From an uncultured Holophagaceae bacterium (GTDB taxonomy: Bacteria > Acidobacteriota > Holophagae > Holophagales > Holophagaceae), in assembly GCA_903937385.1 (NCBI GenBank), contig CAIZZF010000017.1:1-41719 (forward strand): 41,719 nt of DNA. Direction: 5' to 3'. Of the stretch, positions 17,557-33,174 are shown piece after piece; within the stretch, counting starts at the first letter, position 1; each line of letters starts with the position of its first letter. The notes below the pieces were generated by a model. It saw only the letters and a program-made list of their open reading frames with translations. It was not told the origin of the DNA and did no database searches. Both the position numbers and the translations under genes were made by a program.

Positions 17557-18354
17557 ATGCGAAAGATGATGCTCGAAAAACCCATCGCCACGGCCCTCGG
17601 ACTGGGCCTCGCCCTCTCGGTGGGCTGGGGCTTCGCCACCCTCCCGCTCTCCGGCGCGGAGACCGCCCCCGGGGTGACCCCTCACGTGTCCGTGCTGAAG
17701 GGGGAGAAGAACTTCTTCACCGGCTATGACACCCACAACCTCGACGGCACCGTGAACGTGGTCATCGAGATTCCCGCGGGCACCACCGCCAAGTACGAGG
17801 TCAGCATCAAGACGGGCCTCATCGAGCTGGAGCAGAAGAATGGCGCTCCCCGGTTCGTCCAGTACCTGGGCTACCCCTGTAACTACGGCAACATCCCCCG
17901 CACGATCCTGCTGAAGGAAAAGGGCGGGGACGGCGATCCCCTGGACGTGCTCGTGCTGGGCGCCTCGGTGCCCACTGGTTCCGTGGTGAAGACCCGCCCC
18001 CTCGGCGTCCTGAGCCTCATCGACGGCGGCGAGATCGATGACAAGGTGCTCGTCGCCTTGGAGAACAGCCCCTTCGCCAGCTGCCGCAGCATGGAGGACC
18101 TCGAGGCCAAGTTCCCCGGCGTGACCACCATCCTGAAGACCTGGTTCACCTCCTACAAGGGCCGCGACAAGAAGGGCAACCTGATCCTCAGCTCGACGGG
18201 CTTCAAGGGCCGCGCCGAGGCCATCCGGCTCATCGGAGACTCCGCGCTGGACTACGAGCGCTCTGTCATCACCGAGGCCGACAAGCGGGCCCTGGACGAG
18301 AAGGGCAATCCCCGGCTCTATCGCTGGCCGGGCGCGAAGAATCTCGGCGAGTGA
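17557..18354 (+). CDS. ppa: exported inorganic pyrophosphatase (family I)
   Basis: 265 residues; family I bacterial enzymes have about 175, and the surplus is an N-terminal export signal (about 1-35) plus insertions. Active-site residues are present: E71-I-P and K79-Y-E, Y106-P-C-N-Y-G, the metal-binding D125-G-D-P-L-D130, and D156-x4-D161-x-K163. It should hydrolyse pyrophosphate to two phosphates with Mg2+. Family I enzymes are normally cytosolic, so export to the periplasm is the unusual point and implies extracellular or periplasmic PPi as substrate. AAGGAG upstream at 17540-17545. Neighbours are exported CYTH-like, Cache and histidine-phosphatase proteins. Confidence 0.9.
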   Translation: MRKMMLEKPIATALGLGLALSVGWGFATLPLSGAETAPGVTPHVSVLKGEKNFFTGYDTHNLDGTVNVVIEIPAGTTAKYEVSIKTGLIELEQKNGAPRFVQYLGYPCNYGNIPRTILLKEKGGDGDPLDVLVLGASVPTGSVVKTRPLGVLSLIDGGEIDDKVLVALENSPFASCRSMEDLEAKFPGVTTILKTWFTSYKGRDKKGNLILSSTGFKGRAEAIRLIGDSALDYERSVITEADKRALDEKGNPRLYRWPGAKNLGE

Positions 18355-18378: not shown

Positions 18379-18828
18379 ATGAAAAATGCCATTCTGCTCG
18401 TCCCCATCGCCCTCTTCGGAACGGTCCTGGTCGCCCAGGACACCAAGGAGGTCGAGGCCTTCGTCAAAGAGGCCGTGGCCTTCGCCAAGGGGCACCCGAA
18501 GGAGGCCTTTTTGAATGAAGTGAGTCGTCCGATGGGCCGCTTCAACGTCCAGAAGACCAAGCGGCTCTACCTCACGGTCTACGACCTTGAGGGCAAGGTC
18601 ATCGGACACGGGAAGAAGACCCAGGAAGTGGGCGCGAACCAGTTCGCCGCCAAGGACAAGGCCGGCAAGCTCTACATCCAGGAGCGCATCGAGCTCGCCA
18701 AGAAGAAGGGGGGCGGCTGGGTGGAGGAATCGAAGATCAACCCCGCCAACATGCAGACGCAGCAGAAGCGGACCTTCGTGGGTTTCCACGGAGGAATGGT
18801 CATCTGCTGCGGGATGTACGAAGGATAA
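18379..18828 (+). CDS. exported single-Cache-domain protein
   Basis: 149 residues. Signal peptide to about residue 19, then one Cache (sCache_2-like) domain: EAFVKEAVAFAKGHPKEAF at the start, YLTVYDLEGKVIGHGK in the middle strand pair, KLYIQERIELAKKKGGGWVE and a C-terminal strand with CCGMY. Such stand-alone periplasmic Cache proteins bind small molecules and may present a ligand to a membrane kinase. It is 25 bp after the pyrophosphatase gene with GGAG upstream, so co-transcribed. A role as a sensor accessory for the 11885 kinase is inference. Confidence 0.85.
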   Translation: MKNAILLVPIALFGTVLVAQDTKEVEAFVKEAVAFAKGHPKEAFLNEVSRPMGRFNVQKTKRLYLTVYDLEGKVIGHGKKTQEVGANQFAAKDKAGKLYIQERIELAKKKGGGWVEESKINPANMQTQQKRTFVGFHGGMVICCGMYEG

Positions 18829-18896: not shown

Positions 18897-19391
18897 ATGC
18901 TCAGAAAGCTGCTGTTGTCCTTCCTTCTGATCCTGGGCCTCGACGCCCAGGAATCGGTAGTTGTCTTCCTGAGGCACGCCGAAAAGACCCGCCGTGGGGA
19001 CATGGCTGAGCTCTCGCCGGCGGGGCATCGCCGGGCTGCGGCCCTACCGCTGGATCTGCTGCCCTATCGGCCCGTGGCGCTCTTCGCGTCGGATCGGCGC
19101 CGGACGCAGCAGACCCTGGCGCCCCTGGCGGCCCGACTGGGGCTCCCCGTCCAGATCTACGAAAGGGGCCAGGAAGCGGCACTGAGCCAGCGCCTCCGCC
19201 TGTTCTACGAGGGGAAGACGGTCATTGTCTGCGGGCACTCGGACACCCTGGGTGCGATGGTGGGGGCGCTGGGCCATGAGCCCGAGTTTCCCGAGATCCT
19301 GGGCTTCGACCGCTACTGGGTGCTCCGCATTCCTGCTGGCCAGGAGCCCCCTAGCCTGGAAGAGCACCGCCAGAAGCACCGCCCCCGGTGA
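18897..19391 (+). CDS. exported histidine phosphatase superfamily protein
   Basis: 164 residues. Short signal peptide (LLLSFLLILGLDAQ). The histidine-phosphatase core follows: VVFLRHAEKT with catalytic H27 and R26, FASDRRRTQQT with the second active-site Arg, and VCGHSDTLGAM with H114. The small size matches the SixA/PhoE-like group rather than acid phytases. It should remove phosphate from a phosphomonoester in the periplasm. The substrate is unknown. Last gene of the unit from sigma-54 promoter 1, directly before the second activator site. Its ribosome binding site is weak (GGGGA). Confidence 0.85.
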   Translation: MLRKLLLSFLLILGLDAQESVVVFLRHAEKTRRGDMAELSPAGHRRAAALPLDLLPYRPVALFASDRRRTQQTLAPLAARLGLPVQIYERGQEAALSQRLRLFYEGKTVIVCGHSDTLGAMVGALGHEPEFPEILGFDRYWVLRIPAGQEPPSLEEHRQKHRPR

Positions 19392-19657: not shown

Positions 19658-21040
19658 ATGAAACGTCTCATCACCCCTCTGGCCCTCATCCTGCTGGCCG
19701 GCCCCGCCTTTGCCCAGTCCTCCGCGGACCAGGAAAAGCGCATCGCGGACCTCGAGAAGAAGATCGAGAAGCTCGTCAAGCTCGACACCAAGAAGGAAGA
19801 GCCCAAGGACACCAGCTTCAGCGTCAAGTTCGGTGGCCGCATCCACCTGGACTCCGTCTACTTCAACGGCGGCCAGAACCGCCTGCCCGATGGCACCTTC
19901 ATGCGCCGCGCCCGCATCAGCTTCAAGGTGAACGCCGGGGCCGACTGGGTGGGCGAGGGTGATGTGGACTTCGCCGAGAGCGCCGTCAACATCAAGGACA
20001 TGTGGGTGGGCTACACGGGCTTCAAGGACACCCTCATCCAGATCGGCCAGTTCAAAGAGCCCTTCGGCATGGATACCCTGACGTCCTCGAACAACACCAT
20101 GCTGATGGAGCGTTCCTACAGCGACATCTGGACCCCTGACCGGCACGTGGGCGTGGCCTACTCGACCTGGGGCGACCGCTGGATGGTGAAGGGCAGCTTC
20201 TTCGGCCAGGCCATCGACGACACCTCTGACGCCCAGGAAGCCGCGGACCTGAACACGGATTCCACCGGCCTCCTGAAGTCCTACAAGATCATCGACAACC
20301 ACGGCTACGGTGGCGCCCTCCGCGCCGTGTGGCTGCCCATCAAGGTGTCCGACTCCAAGTTCGTGCACCTGGGCGTGGCCGGCGTCGAGCGCAAGCCCAA
20401 TGCCGCTGCCCCTGGCGTGTATGCCGTCGACTTCTCCGGACGTCCCGAGCAGAACAAGGTGAGCCGGGCCAAGTTCGTGGGCGCGGCCGTCACCAACGTC
20501 GACAACTGGAAGCAGACCGCCCTGGAATTCGCCGGCCTCTGGGGACCCTTCTCCTGGCAGAGCGAGTATCAGCAGACGAAGGTGGCCCGTCGTGGCACCC
20601 AGATGCTGGCCTGGTCTGGCACGGCGCTGGTGGCCACCACGGCCGCCCAGCAGCTGGCCAGCACCGTGGACCACACCTTCTCCACCTACTACGGCCAGGT
20701 CTCGTGGATCTTCGGTGGCCAGCGCACCTATGACATCGCCGACGGCATCTTCAAGCCCGTGAAGGCCTCCAAGAACGGAGCCCTGGAAGTGGTGCTGCGC
20801 TTCAGCCAGATGAACCAGGACGACCTGACCGCCATTGACGCAGTCAAGGGCGGCATCGTGAAGAACACCACCCTTGGCCTCACCTACTACGTGAACAAGA
20901 GCCTCCGCTTCATGGCCAACTACACCAAGGTGGCCCCCAACGAGAACTCCGCCCCGAGCGCTGCCTACAGCCCCACGGGCAAGAAGATCTACAGCGACAA
21001 CTTCAACTTCGCCTCTGTCCGCATGCAGGTGAACTTCTAG
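19658..21040 (+). CDS. phosphate-selective porin O/P family outer-membrane protein
   Basis: 460 residues. Signal peptide ending at AFAQ (about 20), a short coiled coil (DQEKRIADLEKKIEKLVKL) typical of OprP/OprO trimers, then a beta-barrel region: FGGRIHLDSVYFNGG, RRARISFKVNA, YTGFKDTLIQIGQFKEPFGMD, SDIWTPDRHVGVAYS, alternating strands throughout, and C-terminal Phe. Members form anion-selective channels; OprP takes phosphate and OprO pyrophosphate/polyphosphate. AGGAG precedes ATG. It stands alone under sigma-54 promoter 2 and is followed by a hairpin. Together with the exported pyrophosphatase this suggests entry of condensed phosphates; the true substrate cannot be read from sequence. Confidence 0.9.
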   Translation: MKRLITPLALILLAGPAFAQSSADQEKRIADLEKKIEKLVKLDTKKEEPKDTSFSVKFGGRIHLDSVYFNGGQNRLPDGTFMRRARISFKVNAGADWVGEGDVDFAESAVNIKDMWVGYTGFKDTLIQIGQFKEPFGMDTLTSSNNTMLMERSYSDIWTPDRHVGVAYSTWGDRWMVKGSFFGQAIDDTSDAQEAADLNTDSTGLLKSYKIIDNHGYGGALRAVWLPIKVSDSKFVHLGVAGVERKPNAAAPGVYAVDFSGRPEQNKVSRAKFVGAAVTNVDNWKQTALEFAGLWGPFSWQSEYQQTKVARRGTQMLAWSGTALVATTAAQQLASTVDHTFSTYYGQVSWIFGGQRTYDIADGIFKPVKASKNGALEVVLRFSQMNQDDLTAIDAVKGGIVKNTTLGLTYYVNKSLRFMANYTKVAPNENSAPSAAYSPTGKKIYSDNFNFASVRMQVNF

Positions 21041-21054
21041 GTTCTCCCACGGAC

Positions 21055-21091
21055 CGCTGGAAGGGTCATTCGGTTCATGACCCTTCCAGCG
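21055..21091 (+). terminator. hairpin after the porin gene
   Basis: Perfect 15-bp stem CGCTGGAAGGGTCAT (21055-21069) with its complement (21077-21091), loop of 7, starting 14 bp after the porin stop. No T-run follows. Confidence 0.65.
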
Positions 21092-21148
21092 AGTTGCGAG
21101 CCATCCTCCGATGGCCAGAAGCAATCTGTCGCCTCGTTTGGGTTCCCC

Positions 21149-21754
21149 ATGAGCAGCGCCGCTCCTGTATACATGCCCCGGTGGGAATGGCGGACCTTCG
21201 CGCCGCGCGCTGACGCGCGACTGAAGGGCCACCTTGGCACTCCGGTGCTAAGCAAGGCCAGCGCCCATGAAACAAGCATCCTGTGCGCCAGGAGCAAGCA
21301 CGATGTCCTGATCCGGGGTGAGGTCCTCCGCCTCAAGTGGCGCAAGCAGGTCAGCCCCAGTGGCCTCGAGCTCTGGGACCTGGTGCTCTCCGAGGCCTTT
21401 CCGTGTTCCTCCGAGGTGCTGCTCCGGTTGTTCGACGCCTGGGTGCTCCCGGCCCCCGCCCTGGACCGGAACACCTACTCCAAGACCCAGTTCCTGGGCG
21501 AAGTCCTGCCGCAGCACCTGGAACTGAAGCCCATTGAGATCGAAACACGCTCTGAGACCTTCCTGCTCGACGGCATCACCTGCGAGCTGACCCAGCTCAC
21601 CGCGAACCACGTGGAGCTGGAGAGCTTCTGCATCGAGCATGAGGATCCGGCCCTGGTGCTCCAGGTCCTGCATCACCTCGGTCTCCAGGGGCGGCGCAAC
21701 ACCAGCTACCCCCAAGGCCTCAAAGCCGCCTTCAACCTACCCCCCCAGCACTGA
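21149..21754 (+). CDS. divergent CYTH-like protein A, cytoplasmic
   Basis: 201 residues from ATG 21149; another ATG at 21173 is possible, and neither has a good ribosome binding site. There is no signal peptide. Signature pieces: WEWRTF near the start (E-x-R in place of ExExK), HETSILCARSKHDVLIRGEVLRLKW, ELWDLVLSEAFP, FLLDGITCELTQL, VELESFCIEHED and LGLQGRRNTSYPQGLKAAF. The same pieces in the same order occur in the 26011-26649 protein, so the two are paralogues. The strand order with paired basic residues is that of CYTH/VTC-like tunnel proteins. It lies 21 bp before a canonical CYTH gene. Triphosphate or polyphosphate binding is inferred. Confidence 0.7.
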   Translation: MSSAAPVYMPRWEWRTFAPRADARLKGHLGTPVLSKASAHETSILCARSKHDVLIRGEVLRLKWRKQVSPSGLELWDLVLSEAFPCSSEVLLRLFDAWVLPAPALDRNTYSKTQFLGEVLPQHLELKPIEIETRSETFLLDGITCELTQLTANHVELESFCIEHEDPALVLQVLHHLGLQGRRNTSYPQGLKAAFNLPPQH

Positions 21755-21775
21755 AATCCTGAACGGAGACTCGGC

Positions 21776-22249
21776 ATGGCCAAGGAAATCGAACGGAAAT
21801 ACCTCGTCAACCTCGCGACCTGGGTGCCCCAGAATGCCGGCACCCACTTCAAGCAGGGCTACCTGAACGCCCAGAAGGAGCGGGTGGTCCGCGTCCGCAT
21901 CGAAGGCGCCAAGGCCAAGCTCACCATCAAGGGCATCACCACCGGTGTGACCCGGGCCGAATTCGAGTACCTGATTCCCGTGGAGGATGCTGCCATCCTG
22001 TTGGACAATCTCTGCGAACAGCCGCTCATCGACAAGCACCGCCACAAGGAAGTCCATGGCGGCAAGACCTGGGAGATCGATGTCTTCCATGGCGATAATG
22101 AAGGGCTGGTCGTCGCCGAGATCGAGCTGGCCTCCGAAGACGAGAAGATTGACTTCCCTGCCTGGATCCGGGAGGAAGTCTCCAGCGATCCCCGCTACTT
22201 CAACTCCAACCTCCTGAAGCATCCTTTCAAGGACTGGACGAAAGCCTAG
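21776..22249 (+). CDS. CYTH domain protein (class IV cyclase/inorganic triphosphatase type)
   Basis: 157 residues, the size of single-domain bacterial TTM enzymes. The diagnostic ExExK motif is E4-I-E6-R-K8 (KEIERKYLV). Basic tunnel residues follow in RVVRVRIEGAKAKLTIKG, then FEYLIPVEDA, WEIDVFHGDNEGLVVAEIEL (acidic metal-binding strand) and a C-terminal NSNLLKHPF, all typical. Characterised relatives of this length hydrolyse tripolyphosphate or make cAMP from ATP. The phosphate-themed neighbours favour triphosphatase activity, by inference. CGGAGA upstream. Followed by a hairpin terminator at 22261. Confidence 0.92.
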   Translation: MAKEIERKYLVNLATWVPQNAGTHFKQGYLNAQKERVVRVRIEGAKAKLTIKGITTGVTRAEFEYLIPVEDAAILLDNLCEQPLIDKHRHKEVHGGKTWEIDVFHGDNEGLVVAEIELASEDEKIDFPAWIREEVSSDPRYFNSNLLKHPFKDWTKA

Positions 22250-22260
22250 GTTCCCCTCAC

Positions 22261-22286
22261 GCGGGTCACCCTCCACGGTGACCCGC
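22261..22286 (+). terminator. hairpin after the CYTH gene
   Basis: GCGGGTCACC (22261-22270) pairs with GGTGACCCGC (22277-22286), loop CTCCAC, followed by CCTTTAT. Lies between the CYTH and anion transporter genes. Confidence 0.7.
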
Positions 22287-22303
22287 CCTTTATAGGTTCA
22301 CGC

Positions 22304-23869
22304 ATGGCCGCCGCAGTCCCCACGCCATCCACCCAGCCTTCGCTCCGGGACCTCCTGGACATGGAGAAGATGACCCTCTCCTCGAAGACCCGGGAGGCGC
22401 AGAGCTCCAACGAGCGCTGGATGCGCTACCTGGGATTCCCGGGCGGGATCCTGCTGTTCCTGGCCATCCTCTACCTGCCCGCCGGGGCGGGGGCCAGCGC
22501 CTCCGCCCAGGCCGGAGCGGCCTGCTTCGCCCTGGCCCTGGTGTGGTGGGTGACCGAGCCCTTCCCGACCTACGTCACCTCCCTGGTGCTGATGTTCCTG
22601 CTGCTGGTGACGCGGACCTCCAATGCCAAGGCCATCATGGATGTGCTGGGCATGGAGGTGATCTGGCTCAACCTCCTGGCCTTCATCCTGAGCTCGATGC
22701 TGGTCAAGACCCGCCTCGCCAAGCGCATGGCACTCTGGCTGGTGCTGCGGTTCGGGCACAAGGCCAGCTGGGCCCTGCTGGCCTTCGTGGTCCTGCAGCT
22801 GGTGCTGGCCCCGCTCATCCCGGCCACCGCCGCGCGCTGCGTGATGACCTTGCCCCTGATGATCGTGGTCGCCACCATCTATGGGTCCACGGAAGCCACC
22901 CCGAACAACTTCGGCAAGAACATGATGCTGCTGAACCTGGGCTGCATCTCGGTGCTCTCCTCCGTCACCATGACCGGCAGCTCCGCGAACCTCATCGCCG
23001 TGGGCCTCATCCAGAACATGGGCGGCCACCGGGTCTACTACATGGACTGGATGATGCTCGGCGCTCCCGTAGCCATCGTCACCATGCTGCTCATGTGGAT
23101 CCTCGGCCAGAAGCTGCTCTTCCGCATCAAGCCCGAGGAGCAGGTGCCCCAGCTGGAGGGTGGCCTGGGCCTGGTCCGGGAGCAGTACGAGTCCATGGGC
23201 GCCTTGAGTTTCCAGGAGAAGAAGGCCATTGCGATCTTCGGCATGGTGCTCTTCCTCTGGATGACAGACATCTTCCACATGCGCTGGTTCGGAGTCGAGA
23301 TCAGCGCCCCCTTCGCCGCGCTGCTGGGCGCCGTGGTGGTGCTGTTCCCCCGCTGGGGCATCCTGTCCTGGGCCGAGGCGGACATCCCCTGGCACCTGCT
23401 GATCTTCAGCGCCGGCGCCTACGCGGGCGGTCTGGCCCTGGATGACACAGGCGCCGCCGAGTGGGGCGTGCGCATGCTCTTCGGCGGCATGAACCTGCGG
23501 GGCGTGCCCTTCGGCTTCACCTACACCGTTGTGATCGCCGTGATGATGTACAGCCACCTGCTCACCACGTCCAAGACCGTGCGCACGCTCATCATGATCC
23601 CCATCATCATCACCATGGCCAAGGCCCTGGGCTGGAACCCTGTGTCCCTGGCCCTGCCCGCCGCGCTCTGCATCGACTGGGTGGTGGGCCTGCCCATCAG
23701 CGGCAAGCCCAACGTGATCCTGTTCTCCACCAACCAGTTCACCGTCGGTGACAACTTCAAGCACGGCATGCTCACCTGCACCATCGGCGTGATCATCCTT
23801 GTGCTCTCCGGCGCGACGTGGTTCCACTGGCTGGGCATCACGCCGGCCTTCTGGGCGGTGGCGCCATGA
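22304..23869 (+). CDS. DASS/SLC13 family anion:Na+ symporter
   Basis: 521 residues with a cytoplasmic N-terminal tail of about 60 and roughly 11-12 transmembrane segments. The two SNT-like signature regions of the divalent-anion/Na+ family are TGSSANLIA near 223 and SGKPNVILFSTNQF near 465. WWVTEPFPTYVTSL in the first hairpin and PATAARCVMTLPLM also fit. Members carry dicarboxylates, citrate, sulfate or phosphate. With dctA already upstream and phosphate-related genes on both sides, an inorganic or phosphorylated anion is plausible, but not shown. The stop overlaps the next gene (ATGA). Confidence 0.88.
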   Translation: MAAAVPTPSTQPSLRDLLDMEKMTLSSKTREAQSSNERWMRYLGFPGGILLFLAILYLPAGAGASASAQAGAACFALALVWWVTEPFPTYVTSLVLMFLLLVTRTSNAKAIMDVLGMEVIWLNLLAFILSSMLVKTRLAKRMALWLVLRFGHKASWALLAFVVLQLVLAPLIPATAARCVMTLPLMIVVATIYGSTEATPNNFGKNMMLLNLGCISVLSSVTMTGSSANLIAVGLIQNMGGHRVYYMDWMMLGAPVAIVTMLLMWILGQKLLFRIKPEEQVPQLEGGLGLVREQYESMGALSFQEKKAIAIFGMVLFLWMTDIFHMRWFGVEISAPFAALLGAVVVLFPRWGILSWAEADIPWHLLIFSAGAYAGGLALDDTGAAEWGVRMLFGGMNLRGVPFGFTYTVVIAVMMYSHLLTTSKTVRTLIMIPIIITMAKALGWNPVSLALPAALCIDWVVGLPISGKPNVILFSTNQFTVGDNFKHGMLTCTIGVIILVLSGATWFHWLGITPAFWAVAP

Positions 23870-24588
23870 GGTCCCTCCGCCTCGGCGCGGCGCTCCTCGC
23901 CGCCTCAGCGCTGGCTCTCGCCACGGAGCTTCCGTCCTATCAGGTGCGCCTTACGGCCGCTCGGGATGGCTCCGGGCAGGCCATGGCCACGGTCCTCGTG
24001 GGCCACTGCCCGGCGGGCCTGCTGGTCCTGCCGCTGGGATTCTCCGCCCCGGAAGACCTCAAGCTCGAAGAGGCCCCGCCCGGCACCCGCCTGGAACTGG
24101 GGGCCCGGGACACCGTCAGCTCCCTGCGGTTCCAGCTGCAAGCCCCTATCGAGGCCCCGGTGGCATTGCGCTTCTCCTTTCGGGTAAAGCAGGTCCTGCA
24201 GGCCCTGAAGACGGCCCCGGGGGAGAAGGGCGCCCTGCCCGCGGGCAGCCGCCTGTTCCGGCACGGCTTCGTGAACACCCAGGAGACGCCCATCAGCCTC
24301 TACCGGCTGGAATTCCAGTTCCCGGAGGACCTGATTGCCCAGGCCGTGCGGGAGCAGCTCCCCAAGCTGGAGAAGCAGGAGACCGGCCCCCGGGTGCTGC
24401 TCTCGGCTCTGGAGGGTCGGCAGGCCGCGACCCTCACCTACGCGAATGTCCACCAGGGGGATGCCACCTCCATGGCCGTCGAGCTGGTGCCGCGCCAGCG
24501 CTCCCTGGTCTGGCTGATCGCCGGGGTCACCCTGGCGGGCCTCTACCTCTTCCACTTCCGGGATCTCGTCGCCAAAAAGGCGTCCTGA
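23866..24588 (+). CDS. periplasmic protein with C-terminal membrane anchor
   Basis: Start ATG overlaps the transporter stop (ATGA), so the two are translationally coupled. 240 residues: signal peptide to about residue 19, a beta-rich periplasmic region (about 20-205), then one C-terminal membrane span (about 211-228, LVWLIAGVTLAGLYLFHF) and a short basic tail DLVAKKAS. The topology places the main domain outside the inner membrane beside the transporter. Family not recognised. It may be an accessory or substrate-delivery subunit of the anion transporter, inferred from coupling only. Confidence 0.75.
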   Translation: MRSLRLGAALLAASALALATELPSYQVRLTAARDGSGQAMATVLVGHCPAGLLVLPLGFSAPEDLKLEEAPPGTRLELGARDTVSSLRFQLQAPIEAPVALRFSFRVKQVLQALKTAPGEKGALPAGSRLFRHGFVNTQETPISLYRLEFQFPEDLIAQAVREQLPKLEKQETGPRVLLSALEGRQAATLTYANVHQGDATSMAVELVPRQRSLVWLIAGVTLAGLYLFHFRDLVAKKAS

Positions 24589-24636
24589 GCCATCGTCCCA
24601 TCCGCGTCCCCGTTCAGGCCGCCTCCGGAGCTCTCG

Positions 24637-25926
24637 TTGCTGCCACCCCAGTTCGTACCCTTCCTGCTCACGGTCGCCATCAGCACGCTGATCGGCATCG
24701 GGCTGAGGGACTACTACGAGCAGGAAGGGAAGCGGGACACCTTCGGCACCGTCCGGACGTTCATCTTCCTGGGGCTCCTGGGCCACATGCTCTACCGGAT
24801 TCCCGTCATCGGAGCCTATGCCTTCCTCGTCGGCATGGTTGTGACGGGCCCCTTCCTGCTGGTCTACTACAACAACAAGGTGAGCCAGCAGAAGAGCCCG
24901 GGACTCATCGGCGTCCTCATTGCCCTGCTGACCTACAGCGTCGGCCCCGTGGTCATCCACGAGCCCCACTGGTACCTGGTGGCCTTCGCCATCACCATCC
25001 TGTTCGTGCTCCACTCCAAGGGCCGCATCCGGCAGTTCACGGACCGCCTCGAGACCGGTGAGGTGGTGACGGCCTGCAAGTTCCTGGCGATCGCGGGCGT
25101 TGTCCTGCCCTTGATTCCCTCGGAGCTCCCAACGGCGGGCATCCTGGGGAGGGTCTTCGCGATCCTCCCGGTCGGTCCCCATCAGATCTGGATGGCAGTG
25201 GTCGTCACGACGGCCATCTCCTACCTCGGCTACGTGCTGCAGACCTACCTCTACCCGAAGAAGGGCCTGCTGCTGACGGGGCTCATCGGGGGACTCTACT
25301 CCAGCACCATGACGGTCCTCGTGCTCTCGAAGAAGACCCGGGCCCAGGAGGGCCAGGCCCGCGAGGCGGCGGCGGCCATCATGCTGTCGACCCCTACCAT
25401 GTACCTGAGGATCCTCTTCCTGGTGGCGGCCTTCATGCCCTCCGGGGCCCTCCGCCTGCTGCCCCCGTTCCTCCTGTTTTCCCTGCTGGCCGGCGCCTAT
25501 GCCTGGTGGCTCCGCCGGGGCACCGAGCTGGAACTGATGGCGACACCCGCTGGCTCCGAGGTGGAGATGAAGGAGCGCAATCCCCTGGAGCTGAACTCGG
25601 CCCTGCTGTTCGCGGTCATGTTCGTCACGGTGGCCGTGATCACCAAGTTCGTCCTGCTGCACTTCCAGGAACTGGGCCTGCGGATGCTCTCCTTCCTGGT
25701 GGGCGCCTCAGACATCGTGCCCTTCATCGTCTCTGTCCTGCAGGGGAACCTCGGCATCGGAGCCGGCCCCATCCTGCAGGCCATCGTCATCGCGACGGCC
25801 TCCAACAATGTCATGAAGGCCGCCTACACCTTCGGGTTCGGGCATCGCACCACCGCCCGCCTGACCGCCGTCGGCATGTCGGGTATCGCCGCCCTGTCCT
25901 TCCTCTACGCCGCGTTGGTCTTCTAG
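24637..25926 (+). CDS. MgtC/DUF4010 family membrane protein, copy 1
   Basis: 429 residues starting at TTG with GGAG at 24627-24630. The N-terminal third has the MgtC/SapB-like pattern ISTLIGIGLRDYYEQEGKRDTFGTVRTFIFLGLLG (read as motif G-I-G-L-R-D ... F-G-T-V-R-T). About 11-12 membrane spans follow, with conserved-looking LETGEVVTACKFLAIAGVVLPLIP and a C-terminal half FLVGASDIVPFIVSVLQGN plus ATASNNVMKAAYTFGFG. The 26776 gene is a close paralogue. DUF4010 function is unknown; transport or sensing of an ion is possible. Confidence 0.85.
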   Translation: MLPPQFVPFLLTVAISTLIGIGLRDYYEQEGKRDTFGTVRTFIFLGLLGHMLYRIPVIGAYAFLVGMVVTGPFLLVYYNNKVSQQKSPGLIGVLIALLTYSVGPVVIHEPHWYLVAFAITILFVLHSKGRIRQFTDRLETGEVVTACKFLAIAGVVLPLIPSELPTAGILGRVFAILPVGPHQIWMAVVVTTAISYLGYVLQTYLYPKKGLLLTGLIGGLYSSTMTVLVLSKKTRAQEGQAREAAAAIMLSTPTMYLRILFLVAAFMPSGALRLLPPFLLFSLLAGAYAWWLRRGTELELMATPAGSEVEMKERNPLELNSALLFAVMFVTVAVITKFVLLHFQELGLRMLSFLVGASDIVPFIVSVLQGNLGIGAGPILQAIVIATASNNVMKAAYTFGFGHRTTARLTAVGMSGIAALSFLYAALVF

Positions 25927-26010
25927 GCCCTGCGGATCCTTGCCTCCCCTGGCTTCCAGGGAACCCCCGAGCGGATAACCCCTCCATCCACCCCTCCACA
26001 GGAGCACCCC

Positions 26011-26649
26011 ATGACCGACGTATTCGCCAAGAACGCCGCCACCAGTGCCGCCGACGCCCTGAAGATCATCCCCCGCGCAGAGTTCCGGGTCTTCGGCCCA
26101 GGCGTCATCGAGCTCGTGAAGGGGAAGATGTGGAACGGGAAGACGGTCCTCTTCCAGGCCCGGCGGATGCCGGCCGAGACCTACTTCCTGTCCGCGAACA
26201 CCAACGAGGCCAACGTGAAGGTGCGGGACGGGCTCCTCGACATCAAGACCAAGACCGGCGAGACCCCCGACGGCTACGAGATCTTCCAGCCCCGGGGCAA
26301 GTTCCAGTTCCCCGTCAAGCAGGGGGACCTGGCCACGATCCTGTCGCACCTCAAGGTCGAGGCGAAGCTCAAGCAGGACATGTACACCATCGACGAGTTC
26401 ATCGCCCTGGCCCGGAAGCACGCGGACCTGGTGCCGGTCACCGTGGAGAAGATGCGGTACGGCTTCACCATCGACGGCATCATCTGCGAGTACGCCCAGG
26501 TGTGGTTCAACGGCGCCATGGTGGAGACCGCCTGTGCCGAGAGCGAGAACTACGAGGGCATGCGCCAGGTCATCGAGGGCCTCGGCCTGAAGGAACTGCC
26601 GAACACGAACTACCTCAAGGCGGCCAAGCGCGTCATGGGCATGGTCTAG
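26011..26649 (+). CDS. divergent CYTH-like protein B, cytoplasmic
   Basis: 212 residues; GGAG at 26001-26004. No signal peptide. AEFRVFG corresponds to WEWRTF of protein A (21149). ETYFLSANTNEANVKVRDG plus LLDIKT, the GKFQFPV strand, FTIDGIICEYAQV, VETACAESENYEG and LGLKELPNTNYLKAAK match protein A in order. The pattern K-V-R-D-G-L-L-D-I-K with alternating charged residues is that of CYTH/VTC-type tunnels. It sits between two DUF4010 membrane genes, which recalls VTC-type domains paired with membrane partners in polyphosphate metabolism. Triphosphate binding is inference; the classic first Glu of ExExK is replaced. Confidence 0.7.
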   Translation: MTDVFAKNAATSAADALKIIPRAEFRVFGPGVIELVKGKMWNGKTVLFQARRMPAETYFLSANTNEANVKVRDGLLDIKTKTGETPDGYEIFQPRGKFQFPVKQGDLATILSHLKVEAKLKQDMYTIDEFIALARKHADLVPVTVEKMRYGFTIDGIICEYAQVWFNGAMVETACAESENYEGMRQVIEGLGLKELPNTNYLKAAKRVMGMV

Positions 26650-26775
26650 TCAAGTTCCAGTCAGCACTGCCCCTGGGGCGGCCAGCAGTTGGGGGGGAGC
26701 CGCCCCGGGGTTCATGGATGGGCACTCCTGCCACCCTGGCCTCAGTCCCCACTGCCCCCCACTCCGGAGTTCCGC

Positions 26776-28122
26776 ATGTTCCCACCCCAGGTCGCGCCCT
26801 TTCTCCTGACCCTGGCCATCAGCACGCTGATCGGTATCGGTCTGCGCGACTACTACGAGAGTGAAAAGAAGTTCGACACCTTCGGCACGGTCCGCACCTT
26901 CGTGTTCTTCGGCATGCTCGGCTTCATGCTCTACCAGATTCCGACCATTGGCCCCTTCGCCTTCCTGCTGGGCATGGCTGCGGTGGTGCCCTTCCTGCTC
27001 GTCTACTACAGCAACAAGGTCCGGCAGAAGAAGAGCCCCGGGCTCATCGGCGTGCTGATCGCGCTGATGACCTACACCACCGGGCCCGTGGCCCTCAACC
27101 AGCCCCACTGGTTCCTGGTGCTCTTCGGTGTGTCCATCCTGTTCGTCCTGCACTCCAAGGGGAAGATCCGCGTCTTCACGGACCGGCTCGAGACCGGCGA
27201 GGTGGTCACGGCCTGCAAGTTCCTGGCGATCGCCGGAGTAGTGCTCCCCCTCATCCCCAGCGCACCGCTGGGCGCCGGCCTCGTGGCCCAGGTCTTCGAC
27301 TCGCTCCCGGTCACGCCGCGGCAGATCTGGATGGCGGTGGTGATCACCACGAGCATCTCCTACTTGGGTTACGTGCTGCAGACCTACCTGTTCCCCCGGA
27401 AGGGCCTGCTGCTCACCGGCGTGATCGGCGGCGTCTACTCCAGCACCGTGGCGGTGCTGGTGCTGGCCAAGAAGTCCAAGCGCAGCCCAGGCCACGACGA
27501 GGAGGCGGCCGCCGCCATCCTGCTGGCTGTCTCGATGATGTATCTCCGCCTGCTGGTCCTCGTCGCGATCTTCCGCTTCCGCTCGGCCCTGCAGGTGGGG
27601 CCGGCCCTGGTGGTCCTGGCCCTGCTCGCGGCGGCCTACGGCATCTGGATCAGGCGCAAGAGCCTGGAGCCGGTCCTGGTGCCCGTGGAGGCTCCGCTGA
27701 GCACGCCGGAGGCGCTGCTCGATGCCGCGACCGACTCTGTGCCGGGCGAGGCCGAAGAGCCGGCCCTGCGGAAGAACCCCCTCGAGATCAACTCCGCCCT
27801 CTTCTTTGCCTTCATGTTCGTGGCGGTGTCCCTGGCGACCAAGTACGCCCTCAGCCTCTACCAGGGCATGGGCCTCCGGATGCTGTCCTTTGTGGTCGGC
27901 TGCTCGGATATCACGCCCTTCGTGGTCTCCGTGCTGCAGGGCAACCTGGGCATCGGCACGGCCCAGGTGCTGCAGGCCATCGTCATCGCCAGCGCCAGCA
28001 ACAACATGCTCAAGGTGGCCTATACCTACATGTTCGGCACCCGCCGCACCGCCAACCTGGCAGCCATGGGCATGGTCACCCTGGCCGTGCTGTCGGTCCT
28101 CTACGCCATCACGCTGATTTAG
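26776..28122 (+). CDS. MgtC/DUF4010 family membrane protein, copy 2
   Basis: 448 residues; ATG 26776 with GGAG at 26766-26769 (the frame is open to 26689). It closely parallels the 24637 protein: ISTLIGIGLRDYYESEKK, FGTVRTF, RLETGEVVTACKFLAIAG, QTYLFPRKGLLLTGVIGG, then FVVGCSDITPFVVSVLQGN and ASASNNMLKVAYTYMFG. It differs mainly by an extra acidic insert at about 315-340 (TPEALLDAATDSVPGEAEEP). A recent tandem duplication around the CYTH-like B gene is likely. Function unknown. Converges on the 28125 gene with a 2-bp gap and no visible terminator. Confidence 0.85.
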   Translation: MFPPQVAPFLLTLAISTLIGIGLRDYYESEKKFDTFGTVRTFVFFGMLGFMLYQIPTIGPFAFLLGMAAVVPFLLVYYSNKVRQKKSPGLIGVLIALMTYTTGPVALNQPHWFLVLFGVSILFVLHSKGKIRVFTDRLETGEVVTACKFLAIAGVVLPLIPSAPLGAGLVAQVFDSLPVTPRQIWMAVVITTSISYLGYVLQTYLFPRKGLLLTGVIGGVYSSTVAVLVLAKKSKRSPGHDEEAAAAILLAVSMMYLRLLVLVAIFRFRSALQVGPALVVLALLAAAYGIWIRRKSLEPVLVPVEAPLSTPEALLDAATDSVPGEAEEPALRKNPLEINSALFFAFMFVAVSLATKYALSLYQGMGLRMLSFVVGCSDITPFVVSVLQGNLGIGTAQVLQAIVIASASNNMLKVAYTYMFGTRRTANLAAMGMVTLAVLSVLYAITLI

Positions 28123-29134: not shown

Positions 29135-30751
29135 TCAGAGATCCCCGATGGCGGCCACGACGCGGGTCCAGAGGTCGCTGCCCTGGGTGCCGTTGGTCAG
29201 GATGACGAGGCCGGTGCCCCGGCTGGGCGAGAACTGGGAGAAGCAGCGGAAGCCCGTCATGTTGGAGCCGCCGTGGTGGGCGATGTCGCCCTGGTCCGTG
29301 GCGTTGAGCGACCAGCCCAGGCCCCAGAAGACCGCCGTGCCGCGGGCGGCGCCCGGCCGCTCCACGGGGTCGCGGACGTCCAGGCGGACCTGGTGCGCCA
29401 GCGCCTCCCGGACCGAGGCCTGGGCCAGCAGCTTCGACTCGCCCCGCTCGGCCTGCATGACCTCGAGCAGCAGGCGGGCGTAGTCCTCGGCACTGGTGTA
29501 GAGGGAGTAGGCCGCATTGGGGTGCTGATACTTCGAGGTGGTCAGCACGGTCCCGTCGTCGCGGTGGCCGGTGGCCTGGCGGGCGCCCAGGGCCGGGGTC
29601 CAGGCGAAGCCCGTGGCCGTGAGCCCGAGCGGCGCGAAGAGGTCCCGGGTGGCCCAGGCATCCAGGGGCTGGCCCGTGACGCGCTCAAGCACCCGCTGCA
29701 GGTAGAAGATCCCCTCGCCGGAGTAGCTGAACCGCGAGCCCGGCGCGAACTGCAGCGGGATCGGCCCCTCCCTTTCTTCGCCGCCCGGCCGCCAGTTGGG
29801 GAAGCCGGAGGTGTGGGAGAGGGCCATCCGGGCCGTCACCTTGAGGCGTTCCGGCTGCTCGGGCAGGAGCTGTTCCGGCGCGTAGGTCGCCAGGGGCTGG
29901 TCGAGGTCCAGGCGGCCCCGCGCCACCAGCTGCAGCGCCAGCAGGCCGAAGATGGGCTTGCTCATGGAGGCGGCCTCGAAGACGGTGCCGGCGGTGATGG
30001 GCTCCCGGGTCTGGGCGTTGCGGACGCCGTAGCCCCTGGACCAGACCAGGCGCCGGTCCTGGATCAGGGCCACGGCCACGCCGGGCACGTGCAGCTCGGT
30101 CATCAGCGCGGGCACAAGCCGGTCCAGGCTGGCCGCCAGGGCCTTCTGCGTGAGCTGGCTGGCCCGTCCCGCCGGGTCCACCTGCCGCAGGGCCAGGGCC
30201 GCCGCCGCCCGGACGGCCTCGTCCCGGTCGCTGAGCAGGCGGGTGAGCTCCGGTGCCGCCGACCGGGCGGACGGGCCGAGGCCGCCCAGGGCCACGGCGG
30301 CGGCCTGGCGGACGTGCTCGCTGGGATCAGCCAGGGCCTTGTTAAGGGCTGGCAGGGCCGCCAGGGCCGGAGAACCGACTCGGCCGAGAGCGATGGCTGC
30401 GGACCAGCGCACCTCGCTGCTCGGGCCTTCGAGGGCCCGGGCCAGGGCCGGGACGGCGGCTGCGCCGAGCCGGCCGAGGGCCAGGGCGGCCGCACCCCGC
30501 AGGTAGAGGTCCTCGTCGCCCAGGGCCGCCACCAGAGCCTGGACCAGGGCCGGGGTCTCGGGGCCGAGGTCGCTCAGGCCGGCCAGAGCCGCCTCGCGCC
30601 GCCGGGGGTCGGGGTCCCCCAGGGCCCGGAGCAGGCTTTGCGGAGCGCTCGCGGCGGGCGGCGTCTGGCCGCCCAGCGGCAGGGCCAGACCCGCCACCAG
30701 GAGCAGCGCGGCCGCGGGTCGGCATCGAGGGGGGGCAGGGCGAAGGGCCAT
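29135..30751 (-). CDS. HEAT-repeat / class C beta-lactamase-type serine hydrolase
   Basis: 538 residues from ATG 30751. Signal peptide about 1-29. Residues about 38-195 are HEAT/PBS-type repeats (LGDPDPRRREAALAGLSDLG, then four or five copies of the AAxALGxLG pattern). Residues about 205-530 are a beta-lactamase/penicillin-binding fold with S262-M-S-K265, a Tyr motif (FSYSGEG) and HHGGSNMTG as the KTG equivalent. Such periplasmic enzymes are DD-peptidases, esterases or D-amino-acid amidases; true antibiotic resistance is not implied. It follows the aminotransferase gene by 7 bp, so both are one operon. The HEAT part may bind a partner protein. Confidence 0.88.
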   Translation of the reverse strand: MALRPAPPRCRPAAALLLVAGLALPLGGQTPPAASAPQSLLRALGDPDPRRREAALAGLSDLGPETPALVQALVAALGDEDLYLRGAAALALGRLGAAAVPALARALEGPSSEVRWSAAIALGRVGSPALAALPALNKALADPSEHVRQAAAVALGGLGPSARSAAPELTRLLSDRDEAVRAAAALALRQVDPAGRASQLTQKALAASLDRLVPALMTELHVPGVAVALIQDRRLVWSRGYGVRNAQTREPITAGTVFEAASMSKPIFGLLALQLVARGRLDLDQPLATYAPEQLLPEQPERLKVTARMALSHTSGFPNWRPGGEEREGPIPLQFAPGSRFSYSGEGIFYLQRVLERVTGQPLDAWATRDLFAPLGLTATGFAWTPALGARQATGHRDDGTVLTTSKYQHPNAAYSLYTSAEDYARLLLEVMQAERGESKLLAQASVREALAHQVRLDVRDPVERPGAARGTAVFWGLGWSLNATDQGDIAHHGGSNMTGFRCFSQFSPSRGTGLVILTNGTQGSDLWTRVVAAIGDL

Positions 30752-30758
30752 CAGGCAC

Positions 30759-31619
30759 CTACTCCAGGTGGTCCTTCTTGAACTCCCGGTACAGGTCCTG
30801 GAGGCGAGCCGTGACCGGACCCATGTGCCCCCCACCGACGACAGCGCCATCGACCTCCACCACGGGCATCACCTCGGAGACGGTGCTGGAGATGAAGGCC
30901 TCGTCTGCCGTGAGGAAGTCCTGGAGGTAGAGGCGCTGCTCATGCACCTCCAGGCCATGGGCGCGGGCCAGGCCCATCACGCACTGGCGGGTGGTGCCCG
31001 GCAGGATGTTGTCCAGCTCCGGCGTGATCAGGACGTTGTCGCGGACGCAGAAGATCGTCGAGCTGGGGCCTTCGGTCAGGTAGCGGCCCCGGTCGTCGTC
31101 GCGATAGAAGAGAGCCTCGAAAGCGCCCTTTTCCTTCGCGTACTGCTTGCCCAGCACGTTGGGCAGCAGGTTGATGGACTTGAGGTGGCAGTAGCCCCAG
31201 CGGATGTCCTGGAAGGTGACGGTCTTGATCCCCACGGACCAGCAGCCCTCGGGCATCTTCCGGAGGGGAATGAGGACGATGAAGAAGTTGGGCCGCACAC
31301 CCTCGGGGAAGGGGTGATAGCGGGGCGCCTCGCCGCGGGTGATCTCCAGGTAGAGCTCACCGTCCTGGATGCCGTTGCGGCGCGCCAGCTCGCGGCAGGC
31401 TCCCAGCAGCTCCTCGGCGGTGTAGGGAAAGTCCATGCCGAGGAAGGCCGCACTCTCGCTCATGCGCCGGATGTGCTTCCCGAAGAGCAGGAACTTGCCG
31501 TCCACGCAGCGGATGACCTCGAACAGGCCGTCCGCGAAGCAGAGCCCCCGGTCCTGGATGCTCAGGAGCTTCTCCGTCTCCTGGTGGAAGCCCCCGTTGA
31601 AGAAAATCTCTCGACCCAT
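30759..31619 (-). CDS. class IV aminotransferase, D-amino-acid transaminase type
   Basis: Start ATG 31619 with GGGAG upstream; 286 residues, the size of Bacillus Dat. PLP-fold class IV features: FADGLFEVIR, RRMSESAAFLGM, LKSINLLPNVLGKQYAKEKGAFEALF with the Schiff-base Lys in LKS, TEGPSSTIFCV and a C-terminal TADEAFISSTVSEVMPVVEVDG. Members transfer amino groups between D-amino acids and 2-oxo acids, or make branched-chain amino acids (IlvE). The KSLNLL-like motif and length favour D-amino acids. The partner gene is a DD-peptidase-type hydrolase, consistent with peptidoglycan D-amino acid metabolism (inference). Confidence 0.85.
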   Translation of the reverse strand: MGREIFFNGGFHQETEKLLSIQDRGLCFADGLFEVIRCVDGKFLLFGKHIRRMSESAAFLGMDFPYTAEELLGACRELARRNGIQDGELYLEITRGEAPRYHPFPEGVRPNFFIVLIPLRKMPEGCWSVGIKTVTFQDIRWGYCHLKSINLLPNVLGKQYAKEKGAFEALFYRDDDRGRYLTEGPSSTIFCVRDNVLITPELDNILPGTTRQCVMGLARAHGLEVHEQRLYLQDFLTADEAFISSTVSEVMPVVEVDGAVVGGGHMGPVTARLQDLYREFKKDHLE

Positions 31620-31741
31620 GGACGCAGCTCCCTCGCGTGGTGGGCTCCATTTTTTCACAGAGCCACTGCGGGGTGACAAATAAAATGGTCACATGGGTTC
31701 GATTTGATGCTTTTTATTATCAAACCACCTGCAGGGCCAAG

Positions 31742-32713
31742 TCAGATCACCCAGTCGCTGGGTACGTCCTGCTTGAACTCCTGGGGCTGGTGGTTGCGGT
31801 ATTGCAGCTCGGGGTTCTTGACGGTGACGCGGGTCTGAGGCGGCACCGTCTGGGTGACGAACACATTGCTGCTGATGACGGCCTCCTCCCAGATGACAGT
31901 CTCGCCGCCCAGGATCGAGGCTCCGGAATAGACCGTGACGCGGTCCTTGAGGGTGGGGTGGCGCTTCACGCCCTTGAGGGACTGGCCGCCCCGGGTGGAG
32001 AGGGCCCCCAGGGTCACGCCCTGGTAGATCTTCACGTATTCGCCGATGACGGTGGTCTCACCGATGACCACGCCGGTGCCGTGGTCGATGAAGAAGTAGG
32101 CGCCGATGGTGGCGCCTGGGTGGATGTCGATGCCCGTGAGGGCGTGGGCGTACTCGCTCATGATGCGGGGGATCAGGGGCACCTGGAGCTGGTGGAGCTC
32201 GTGCGCGATGCGGTGGACCGTGAGGGCGAAGATGCCCGGGTAGGAGAAGATCACCTCGTCCGTGTCGATGGCGGCGGGGTCCCCTTCGAAGGCCGCCTGC
32301 ACATCGGTGGCCAGGATGGCGCGCAGCCGGGGAACGGCCTCCAGGAAGGCGTGGACGATGTCTTCGGCAGCCTGCTCGAAGTCCTGGGCGGGGCTGCCGT
32401 GGCGGTCGGCCTGGTGGCGGAGGACGTTCTGCACCTGCTCGAAGAGCCGGGTCCGGATGTCCCCCAGCAGCTCGCCCACGTAGTATTCCAGCGTTCGGGT
32501 GGACAGGTTTTGCTTGCCGAAGTAGCCCGGGAAAAGCAGCTCCCGCAGCTTCTTGACAAGGTCGATCACCGCGTCCCGGCTGGGCAGCGAGCCCGCGTCG
32601 ATGTGCCGCGTCCGGGGCTCGGCCAGGTCGCTGGCCACGATGGCGGCCACCAGGTTGGAGAAATCCTCCGAGGCCGACTGCTTTCTCCAGAGGCGGGCGG
32701 GTTCGCTGCTCAT
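31742..32713 (-). CDS. cysE: serine O-acetyltransferase
   Basis: 323 residues from ATG 32713 (GGAG upstream). A helical N-terminal region of about 190 residues (longer than E. coli CysE) precedes the left-handed beta-helix of hexapeptide repeats: HPGATIGAYFFIDHGTGVVIGE, IGEYVKIYQGVTLG, HPTLKDRVTVYSGASILGG, with catalytic His in FIDH and the acceptor loop after VTLGALS. It makes O-acetylserine from serine and acetyl-CoA for cysteine synthesis. The extended EpsC-like form is common in non-proteobacteria. Its start overlaps the DUF4395 stop by 4 bp, within the metY-DUF4395-cysE order on the minus strand. Confidence 0.93.
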   Translation of the reverse strand: MSSEPARLWRKQSASEDFSNLVAAIVASDLAEPRTRHIDAGSLPSRDAVIDLVKKLRELLFPGYFGKQNLSTRTLEYYVGELLGDIRTRLFEQVQNVLRHQADRHGSPAQDFEQAAEDIVHAFLEAVPRLRAILATDVQAAFEGDPAAIDTDEVIFSYPGIFALTVHRIAHELHQLQVPLIPRIMSEYAHALTGIDIHPGATIGAYFFIDHGTGVVIGETTVIGEYVKIYQGVTLGALSTRGGQSLKGVKRHPTLKDRVTVYSGASILGGETVIWEEAVISSNVFVTQTVPPQTRVTVKNPELQYRNHQPQEFKQDVPSDWVI

Positions 32714-33168
32714 GGGTGCTCCAGGGAAACGCGGCTGGCGGTGAAGGTGGCCTTGAGCAGACTGTAGACCCTGCAGCCCACACAGAAGCCGAGGAAGGCT
32801 TCCAGCGCCGCGCACAGGATCAGCACGGCACCAAGGGCCAGGGCCGGCCGGGGGTGGTGGAAGAACAGCGCGAGCGCGATGCCCAGAGAAAAGGCCGCGC
32901 CCACCAGCGCCGCGAAGCGCTTGGGGCCGGCATTGATAGGTCGGGGCGACAGTCCTGCTGCTGTCCGCAGGGCCTTCGCGGCCTGCGCCACGGGACTCCA
33001 GGCACTCCAGCCGCGGCTGCGGAGGCCGAAGTCGATGGCCAGCAGCAGCGGCAGCCAGGCTTGGCCGAGTCCCAGGCTGGCCAGGGTGAGCAGGATGATC
33101 AGGCCCGCGCCGATGCGCGTGGCCCGATCATCGATGACCTCGGGGGAGATGGGGCAGGACTCGGTCAT
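32710..33168 (-). CDS. DUF4395 membrane protein
   Basis: 152 residues with four membrane segments in two hairpins (about 20-48 and 84-130). CPISPEVIDDRATRIGAGL at the start, NAGPKRFAALVGAAFSLG, and the closing FLGFCVGCRVY with CxxC are DUF4395 marks. Function is unknown; the CxxC and its place between metY and cysE suggest a link to sulfur or thiol transport. Overlaps cysE by 4 bp and follows metY by 6 bp, so co-transcribed. Confidence 0.85.
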   Translation of the reverse strand: MTESCPISPEVIDDRATRIGAGLIILLTLASLGLGQAWLPLLLAIDFGLRSRGWSAWSPVAQAAKALRTAAGLSPRPINAGPKRFAALVGAAFSLGIALALFFHHPRPALALGAVLILCAALEAFLGFCVGCRVYSLLKATFTASRVSLEHP

Positions 33169-33174
33169 GGCGGC

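Follow-up and report, generated by a model that had tools for sequence, protein, structure and literature searches.

An unnamed bacterial branch of the triphosphate-tunnel fold, predicted from two acidobacterial genes, and its phosphate-linked gene cluster

We analysed a 41,719-nucleotide stretch of DNA, hereafter the window, from an uncultured Holophagaceae bacterium of the Acidobacteriota (assembly GCA_903937385.1, contig CAIZZF010000017.1), which encodes two related proteins, P0001 and P0003. A first-pass annotation made from the sequence alone had described them as paralogues of an uncharacterised triphosphate-tunnel (TTM) subfamily, in which the motif ExRxF replaces ExExK, and possibly as a binding rather than a catalytic form. 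The predicted structures and the profile comparisons give good support to the view that both proteins belong to an unnamed, widespread bacterial branch of the TTM fold, for which we coined the label TTM-R; the genes are called here TTM-R1 (P0001) and TTM-R2 (P0003). The surroundings make the finding larger than the annotation had said: the window holds the acidobacterial version of a conserved, phosphate-linked gene cluster. To our knowledge, the bacterial sensing of internal phosphate and short polyphosphate, as well as the import of condensed phosphate, are poorly understood, and a conserved unnamed family that accompanies a polyphosphate hydrolase and transporters in 15 phylum-level groups provides a testable entry to phosphate sensing. 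In addition, ExRxF has taken the place of the hallmark motif of this tunnel fold, whereas a neighbouring gene retains the canonical form. A full-text search of one open library, judged by the titles and the starts of abstracts of the papers listed, found no work on the TTM-R family or its cluster.

The two TTM-R genes and their locus

Both open reading frames (ORFs) lie on the forward strand as annotated, and the kinship of their products is real: they share 30% identity over 191 amino acids (BLASTP E 3e-21). When the own genome was searched with P0003, P0001 was found with E 1.2e-14 and, besides P0003 itself, the single other match was non-significant (E 0.09). The start of P0001 at 21149 is likely to be correct, because most of its same-family homologues begin in a similar way (MSxAxP-like) and its orthologue in genome G022 has an in-frame TAG upstream of the start. 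The replacement of ExExK by ExRxF was seen in both proteins and in 23/23 covering rows among the 24 alignment rows not chosen by a search pattern, P0001 and P0003 included. The wider set of shared motifs is also present, except that two of them do not hold in both proteins: VExxCxE reads LESFCIE in P0001, and NTxYxxxLK reads NTNYLKAAK in P0003.

The neighbours are as the annotation had stated, since P0002 next to P0001 is a CYTH protein and P0003 is flanked by two DUF4010 genes (Table 1). The pair may or may not stem from a recent, local duplication: in the tree P0003 joins other sequences of the phylum while P0001 branches apart from them, yet a topology constrained to unite all nine own-family rows was not rejected (p-AU 0.109). 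The larger tree has long branches, which may mislead.

Table 1. Features of the TTM-R locus in the window
Feature	Positions	Strand	Description
Inorganic pyrophosphatase (P0010)	17557..18354	+	PF00719, E 1.4e-34; by eye, hydrophobic signal-like N-terminus
sCache_2 protein (P0009)	18379..18828	+	PF17200, E 1.7e-9
Histidine phosphatase superfamily protein	18897..19391	+	PF00300, E 3.7e-10
Phosphate-selective porin O/P (P0008)	19658..21040	+	PF07396, E 7.9e-44
Inverted repeat	21057..21089	+	perfect, 13 bp, 7-nt loop; between porin and TTM-R1
TTM-R1 (P0001)	21149..21754	+	diverged ExRxF tunnel-family copy, between porin O/P and CYTH
Canonical CYTH (P0002)	21776..22249	+	PF01928, E 3.8e-14; EIERK and AEIEL motifs
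DASS/SLC13-type anion transporter (P0004)	22304..23869	+	PF00939, E 2.5e-59; altered motifs PAT, SKTVR, KPN
Small unannotated protein (P0005)	23866..24588	+	ATG overlaps DASS stop
DUF4010 membrane protein a (P0006)	24637..25926	+	PF13194, E 8e-48
TTM-R2 (P0003)	26011..26649	+	copy retaining all near-invariant family residues; flanked by DUF4010 genes
DUF4010 membrane protein b (P0007)	26776..28122	+	PF13194, E 3.1e-44; likely ATG 26776 inside ORF 26689-28122

The arrangement recurs in related genomes. A TTM-R relative was found in 22/396 genomes of the phylum sample, the own genome included, and 20 phylum regions were picked by hand among the TTM search matches (one of them, L184, overlaps L055). 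In 18/20 of these, the TTM gene is accompanied by porin O/P, CYTH and either DASS or Tct; the other two represent a Ppx fusion and a lone divergent ORF. The seven own-family regions with both TTM genes share the order of the window (pyrophosphatase, porin, TTM-R1, CYTH, DASS, P0005, DUF4010a, TTM-R2, DUF4010b), except that two have no DUF4010a and two have a pyrophosphatase at 31-36% identity. Two further own-family regions (G415 and G143) are devoid of TTM-R1, and a pyrophosphatase match upstream of the porin was present in 9/9 own-family regions; G003 and G030, which carry both TTM genes on split contigs, stood outside the synteny set. Synteny thus indicates that P0001 holds the usual place of the family, and P0003 the place between the DUF4010 genes. 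Among the 37 genomes of the genus tested both ways, 9 have both TTM genes together with a DASS at at least 90% identity, and the other 28 lack both TTM genes and show no DASS match of 30% identity or more; G464, a tenth genome of the genus with the DASS, lay outside the TTM search.

The intergenic region between the porin and TTM-R1 (21041-21148) folds at -47.7 kcal/mol (z -4.07 vs shuffles). The inverted repeat within it is a possible attenuator or processing hairpin, and it could set differing expression of the porin and the downstream genes. Scans of promoters and terminators gave nothing above chance. By eye, P0005 has a signal-peptide-like start and a hydrophobic C-terminal stretch; a small unannotated protein (c50) occupies the same position after the DASS in L062 and L066.

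Predicted fold and conserved residues

AlphaFold models built from alignments of 26 rows for P0003 and 24 rows for P0001 were confident (pLDDT 91.5 and pTM 0.85 for P0003; 87.7 and 0.79 for P0001), and both predicted an antiparallel beta tunnel with a C-terminal plug helix, as in the TTM superfold. Structure prediction, which the annotation had suggested as a check, placed CYTH, thiamine triphosphatase (ThTPase) and TTM chains at the top of both comparisons. The best match of P0003 was 1yem (Z 12.5, root-mean-square deviation (rmsd) 3.5, 150 residues aligned), with human ThTPase 3tvl (Z 12.0, rmsd 3.8, 174 aligned) and SaTTM 7ns9 (Z 12.0, rmsd 4.1, 162 aligned) close to it; VTC chains scored Z 7.9 and 7.5 among the matches listed, and Med18 about 8.5. 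For P0001, mouse ThTPase 5a64 came first (Z 12.6, rmsd 4.0, 175 aligned). Foldseek concurs, with best E values of 4.4e-6 and 2.6e-6 and chains of the same kinds leading both lists.

At the level of sequence profiles the kinship is faint. In the profile-profile search, also suggested by the annotation, CYTH was the best match, though a weak one (E 0.0011, 59 columns, probability 20.6); VTC, represented by only 6 rows, gave E 0.14, and five unrelated families gave E 0.13-0.73. In the same test CYTH and VTC, which have a common fold, matched each other merely at E 0.016. When solved structures were searched, P0001 or P0003 as single queries returned nothing useful, and the profile found the CYTH-type chains 1yem (E 0.19) and 2dc4 (E 0.67) below significance, among interferon and DnaD-like chains. 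For neither protein did Pfam (E up to 1) or NCBIfam (E up to 0.1) give a match. The 31 distinct members scanned, these two included, have no Pfam match on the tunnel part beyond chance level; the CYTH profile PF01928 matched none of them at E up to 1 (HMMER filters discard most matches above 0.1), and the VTC profile PF09359 matched none of them and nothing in the own genome. NCBIfam has no model for the tunnel part of the 12 members scanned. The term "uncharacterised TTM subfamily" was therefore apt, because TTM structures match first, no Pfam or NCBIfam model matches and CYTH is the best profile; there was no confident match to an unrelated fold. The forced full-length profile alignment with CYTH has low-confidence columns, so that, except in the last third, residues were equated by the order of the strands.

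For a broader view of the family, the genome_contigs collection (84,980 species) was scanned with a 7-row alignment, which yielded 343 pattern hits; 317 of them were confirmed and the best 80 analysed. By record title, these best 80 of 317 stretches belong to 15 phylum-level groups, including Acidobacteria, Bacteroidetes, Ignavibacteria, Synergistota, spirochaetes, Firmicutes, Cloacimonadota, Neomarinimicrobiota, WOR-3 and Chloroflexota, and named non-metagenomic carriers include Treponema parvum ATCC 700773 and Pyramidobacter sp. C12-8. Two TTM-R genes also occur in L123 (Synergistaceae), in tandem ahead of Ppx, and in L059 (Acidobacteriota), on either side of a pyrophosphatase and a porin. 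L188 (G292) has an isolated TTM-R-like ORF, highly divergent and with a very long branch in the tree, and none of the cluster genes surveyed.

L053, identical to L043, was omitted from the conservation set, leaving 79 pattern-found rows. The search pattern contains ExRxF (R7 to F13 lie inside it; L043 numbering here and below), so this motif is conserved by construction in those rows. E9, R11, F13, E37, N48, K50, R52, D57, K59, E70, K77, K129, R131, E142, E159 and Y183 are each present in 79/79 of them, and in 16/17 or 17/17 of the other rows outside the P0001 group. Beyond the reach of the pattern bias, N48, K50, R52, K59, V127, K129, R131, E142 and Y183 reach 79/79 and 17/17, while E37, D57, E70, K77 and E159 reach 79/79 and 16/17; in all, about 19 polar positions are near-invariant. 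Matched by strand position, the second Glu of ExExK corresponds to the invariant R11. As for the acidic pair of the last strand, E159 is present in 79/79 and 23/24 rows, and the Glu two residues on in 25/79, with an uncertain register to the CYTH ExE; since this second Glu is not conserved, a full ExE is doubtful. In AtTTM3, Glu-2, Glu-4, Glu-90 and Glu-171 are described as forming further metal sites, and mutation of Glu-2, Glu-4 or Glu-169 as strongly lowering hydrolysis; Vtc4p is described there as having no such patch (PMC4641920).

The two proteins of the window are unequal, a point unseen in the first-pass annotation: P0003 keeps the near-invariant residues (E24, R26, F28, E56, N68, K70, R72, D77, K79, E90, K97, K147, R149, E160, E177 and Y201), and P0001 is without several of the basic ones. 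In the seven rows of the P0001 group, K50, D57, K77 and R131 are lost in all and R52 in four, and at the position of K129 four rows have Lys, two have Arg and P0001 has Thr. The group keeps E9, R11 and F13 (6/6 covered), together with K59, E70, E159 and Y183. In the pairs printed, dN/dS was 0.13-0.49 for P0001, which indicates purifying selection, and 0.13-0.20 for P0003.

Compared with known tunnel proteins, TTM-R most resembles the CYTH proteins (PF01928: ThTPase, SaTTM, YgiF, AtTTM3), its nearest structural and profile relatives, with which it shares the tunnel fold, several strands that bear basic residues and, towards the C-terminus, a conserved region with Tyr and Lys. It differs from them in having ExRxF instead of ExExK, in the poorly kept second Glu after E159, in the additional near-invariant E37, D57 and K77, and in being missed by the Pfam model. 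The VTC polymerase domain (PF09359) has the same superfold and, in Vtc4p, likewise no acidic patch (PMC4641920), whereas its profile match and listed Z scores (7.5-7.9) are weak and TTM-R has no membrane or SPX part. Departures from the canonical motifs or activity are described for other TTM folds as well: AtTTM1 and AtTTM2 without ExExK, the hallmark of CYTH enzymes, and without ExE (PMC8233210), and Med18 and Med20 with apparently lost activity (PMC4641920). Unlike TTM-R, these are eukaryotic proteins of other contexts, and Med18 scores Z of about 8.5 vs 12.5 for CYTH.

Hydrolase and transporter genes across 80 loci

In the 80 loci, neighbouring genes were identified by scanning representatives against Pfam, and profile searches of stop-to-stop frames supplied the counts, a gene being counted anywhere in the locus on either strand; several loci reach contig ends, and absences are lower bounds. 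In these loci the two partner hydrolases exclude each other: Ppx/GppA without CYTH in 58/80 loci, CYTH without Ppx in 19/80, both in 0/80 and neither in 3/80. The next mapped gene after TTM-R is Ppx in 58/80 and CYTH in 16/80 (74/80 together). By chance, 0.22 Ppx genes would be expected in the 822 kb of loci, at the own genome's one Ppx per genome. The consensus of 59 Ppx sequences retains the GeeE and GGGS motifs, and ExExK is kept in 37/38 CYTH matches (100 loci surveyed). One TTM-R member is fused to Ppx (G169, locus L046; PF02541 E 2.4e-53; TIGR03706 E 2.2e-62, below the model cut-off). Neighbour cluster c11 was read as antisense shadows of Ppx genes, and its count was replaced by the profile survey.

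The transporter slot is likewise filled by one of two kinds, Tct in 62/80 loci and DASS in 10/80 (72/80 in total), with both in none and neither in 8, several of which are contig-end loci. Defined as Ppx or CYTH plus Tct or DASS, the conserved cluster thus has its hydrolase in 77/80 loci and its transporter in 72/80, and the window contains both. Genes for inorganic phosphate (Pi) transport or MgtC (PiT, PhoU_div, Na/Pi, MgtC) occur in 48/80 loci, and porin O/P in 15/80. The minimum number of changes on the tree is 3 for the hydrolase partner (49 rows) and 2 for the transporter (43 rows), and records titled Bacteroidetes or Bacteroidota include both kinds of hydrolase partner.

Several clusters have a phosphonate-binding-like protein (PF12974) and a histidine kinase nearby (e.g. 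L110 1863-2765, L116 1960-3417), which may sense the imported compound. The Bacillota clusters L064, L065 and L068 end in two MgtC genes, perhaps the equivalent of the window's two DUF4010 genes. A reading in terms of arsenic, suggested by an ArsR-like gene lying upstream in 10 loci, each with a Cloacimonadota title, was dropped; no search for arsenic genes was made.

The DASS proteins of the cluster depart from the SNT motifs. SNT motifs are described as binding both carboxylates in DASS transporters (PMC7553777), and SLC13A2 and SLC13A1 aligned with P0004 have SNT or SN-type motifs. P0004 matches the PF00939 profile, though it has PAT and SKT in place of the two SNT motifs. Each of the 27 aligned DASS proteins of the cluster, P0004 among them and several being close orthologues (the L061 DASS, shorter than 400 amino acids, stood outside the count), has [SP]AT for the first motif, SKTxR for the second and KP further on. 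Ten DASS paralogues of the genus, hand-picked from weaker matches and 22-27% identical to P0004, served as controls: SKTxR and KP occur in 0/10, and SNT is kept in the first motif in 8/10 and in the second in 4/10. The register of the first SNT relative to the controls is off by one residue in the alignment, and no cluster protein has Asn there; a basic residue just after the first motif is also found in the paralogues and is uninformative. These motifs argue for a substrate other than a dicarboxylate and for a more basic site; from the context, the substrate may be a phosphate anion.

A possible role in condensed-phosphate sensing

The company of TTM-R genes, an enzyme that splits polyphosphate together with transporters for phosphate or anions, makes it probable that the protein senses or handles short phosphate chains. 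We propose, with a probability of about 0.45, that TTM-R is a non-hydrolytic binder or sensor of short-chain condensed phosphate that controls or feeds the adjacent transporter and hydrolase; the ligand, the absence of hydrolysis and the regulatory link are the parts that we infer. The binding form raised by the first-pass annotation is plausible on the sequence features, because an invariant Arg stands at an acidic position of ExExK and a canonical hydrolase adjoins. The tunnel would bind pyrophosphate (PPi), tripolyphosphate (PPPi) or polyphosphate without the usual two-metal route of hydrolysis, and would have no usual second metal site. The paired Ppx or CYTH would clear the ligand, and the transporter would be either the controlled target or the source of the ligand. 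In this genus, P0003 would act as the working binder and P0001 as a diverged partner subunit kept by selection, much as the catalytic Vtc4 of yeast is accompanied by tunnel-domain paralogues within the VTC complex.

A eukaryotic parallel is provided by Pho91, a member of the DASS family with an SPX domain, an unrelated helical domain, fused in cis. The current of this Na+/Pi symporter is described as raised by PPi and polyP3, the PPi effect requiring the SPX domain (PMC6449605), so that a transporter is paired with a PPi-responsive module, as the TTM-R cluster may be. Here the tunnel protein is encoded in trans. A more extended version, which sees in the cluster a bacterial equivalent of the SPX-DASS/VTC logic of eukaryotes, a modular system for taking up and sensing short-chain polyphosphate, would have the tunnel read (or make) PPPi or polyphosphate and Ppx or CYTH clear it; transport of Pi or of a condensed-phosphate anion would fall to lysine-modified DASS or Tct, together with PiT/NaPi/MgtC-type partners. 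We regard this version as tentative and somewhat doubtful.

Several points weigh against the proposal of a non-hydrolytic binder. Tct proteins usually carry carboxylates, and Tct clusters outnumber those with DASS; the departure from SNT in the second DASS motif is shared with control paralogues (SNT in 4/10). The three loci with neither hydrolase are all WOR-3 and have PhoU_div-PiT, and P0003 is not adjacent to the CYTH gene in the window. The equation of R11 with the second Glu of ExExK rests on strand position rather than superposition, and near-invariance of so many polar residues would suit an enzyme equally. The best 80 of 317 stretches favour close relatives, and relatives within a phylum are not independent. 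Pho91 is described as showing no significant Na+-dependent uptake of PPi (PMC6449605), which cautions against assuming that the cluster DASS imports PPi.

If TTM-R were an enzyme of altered chemistry, e.g. one that, like VTC, polymerises or transfers phosphate to form PPPi or polyphosphate from ATP and Pi, for Ppx or CYTH to degrade, its roughly 19 near-invariant polar residues would be accounted for, and Vtc4p without the acidic patch is described as still polymerising polyphosphate (PMC4641920). In a survey of 43 genomes of the 80 loci (L074 and 36 loci lay outside it), PPK1 was found in 12/43 (11 over the cut-off), PPK2 in 14/43 and neither in 27/43; 26/43 were without PPK1, PPK2 and VTC, while the RecA control was found in 42/43 (41 over the cut-off). 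Draft genomes are incomplete, however, and the profile is nearer CYTH than VTC, as are the structural scores. Moreover, PPK1 occurs in 45/47 genomes of the window's genus (42 over the cut-off), whether or not TTM-R is present, which contradicts the idea of TTM-R as a simple replacement for missing polyphosphate kinases, PPK1 or PPK2. Taken together, these data make the enzyme rather unlikely. A substrate-recruiting module of the adjacent hydrolase, comparable to CHAD in CYTH-CHAD proteins, finds a precedent in the polyphosphate binding described for CHAD (PMC6537752), and the Ppx fusion and the regular hydrolase adjacency agree with it. CYTH-CHAD proteins resemble the TTM-R cluster in joining a short-polyphosphate hydrolase to a second polyphosphate-related module (PMC4641920, PMC6537752), whereas in the cluster the second module has a tunnel fold and pairs with Ppx too. 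We consider this role improbable, because one family would have to serve two hydrolase families, the constant transporters would be unexplained, and the WOR-3 loci have PhoU_div-PiT without either hydrolase.

The ligand might instead be a nucleotide such as (p)ppGpp or ATP, with TTM-R coupling the uptake of nutrients to the stringent response by way of the GppA members of Ppx/GppA. The neighbour family does include GppA (PF02541), and other TTM tunnels bind nucleoside triphosphates (SaTTM-ATP complex 7nsd), but the alternative partner is a canonical CYTH, for which we met no (p)ppGpp role in the sources at hand, none having been searched for, and inorganic phosphate is suggested both by the phosphate transporters of the cluster and by the altered DASS motifs; this makes a nucleotide very unlikely. 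A fully non-catalytic structural protein devoid of a small ligand, like Med18/Med20, would accord with P0001, which is under purifying selection despite the missing tunnel residues, and with the TTM folds of apparently lost activity described in PMC4641920. Since P0003 keeps the charged set, which hardly varies among the remaining rows once the P0001 group is left aside, we consider a purely structural role very unlikely.

Elsewhere in the window, a Cache/SpoOB-type sensor kinase and a response regulator adjoin a sodium:dicarboxylate symporter (10348-11658) within 7591-15449, and a second kinase with a sigma-54 response regulator lies upstream of the cluster at 11885-15449; some other clusters also have a kinase upstream. 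The region 31637-41327 contains long ORFs, several of them overlapping, with no Pfam match at 1e-5. On the reverse strand at 29135-30850, HEAT repeats are fused to a beta-lactamase-family domain (PF00144).

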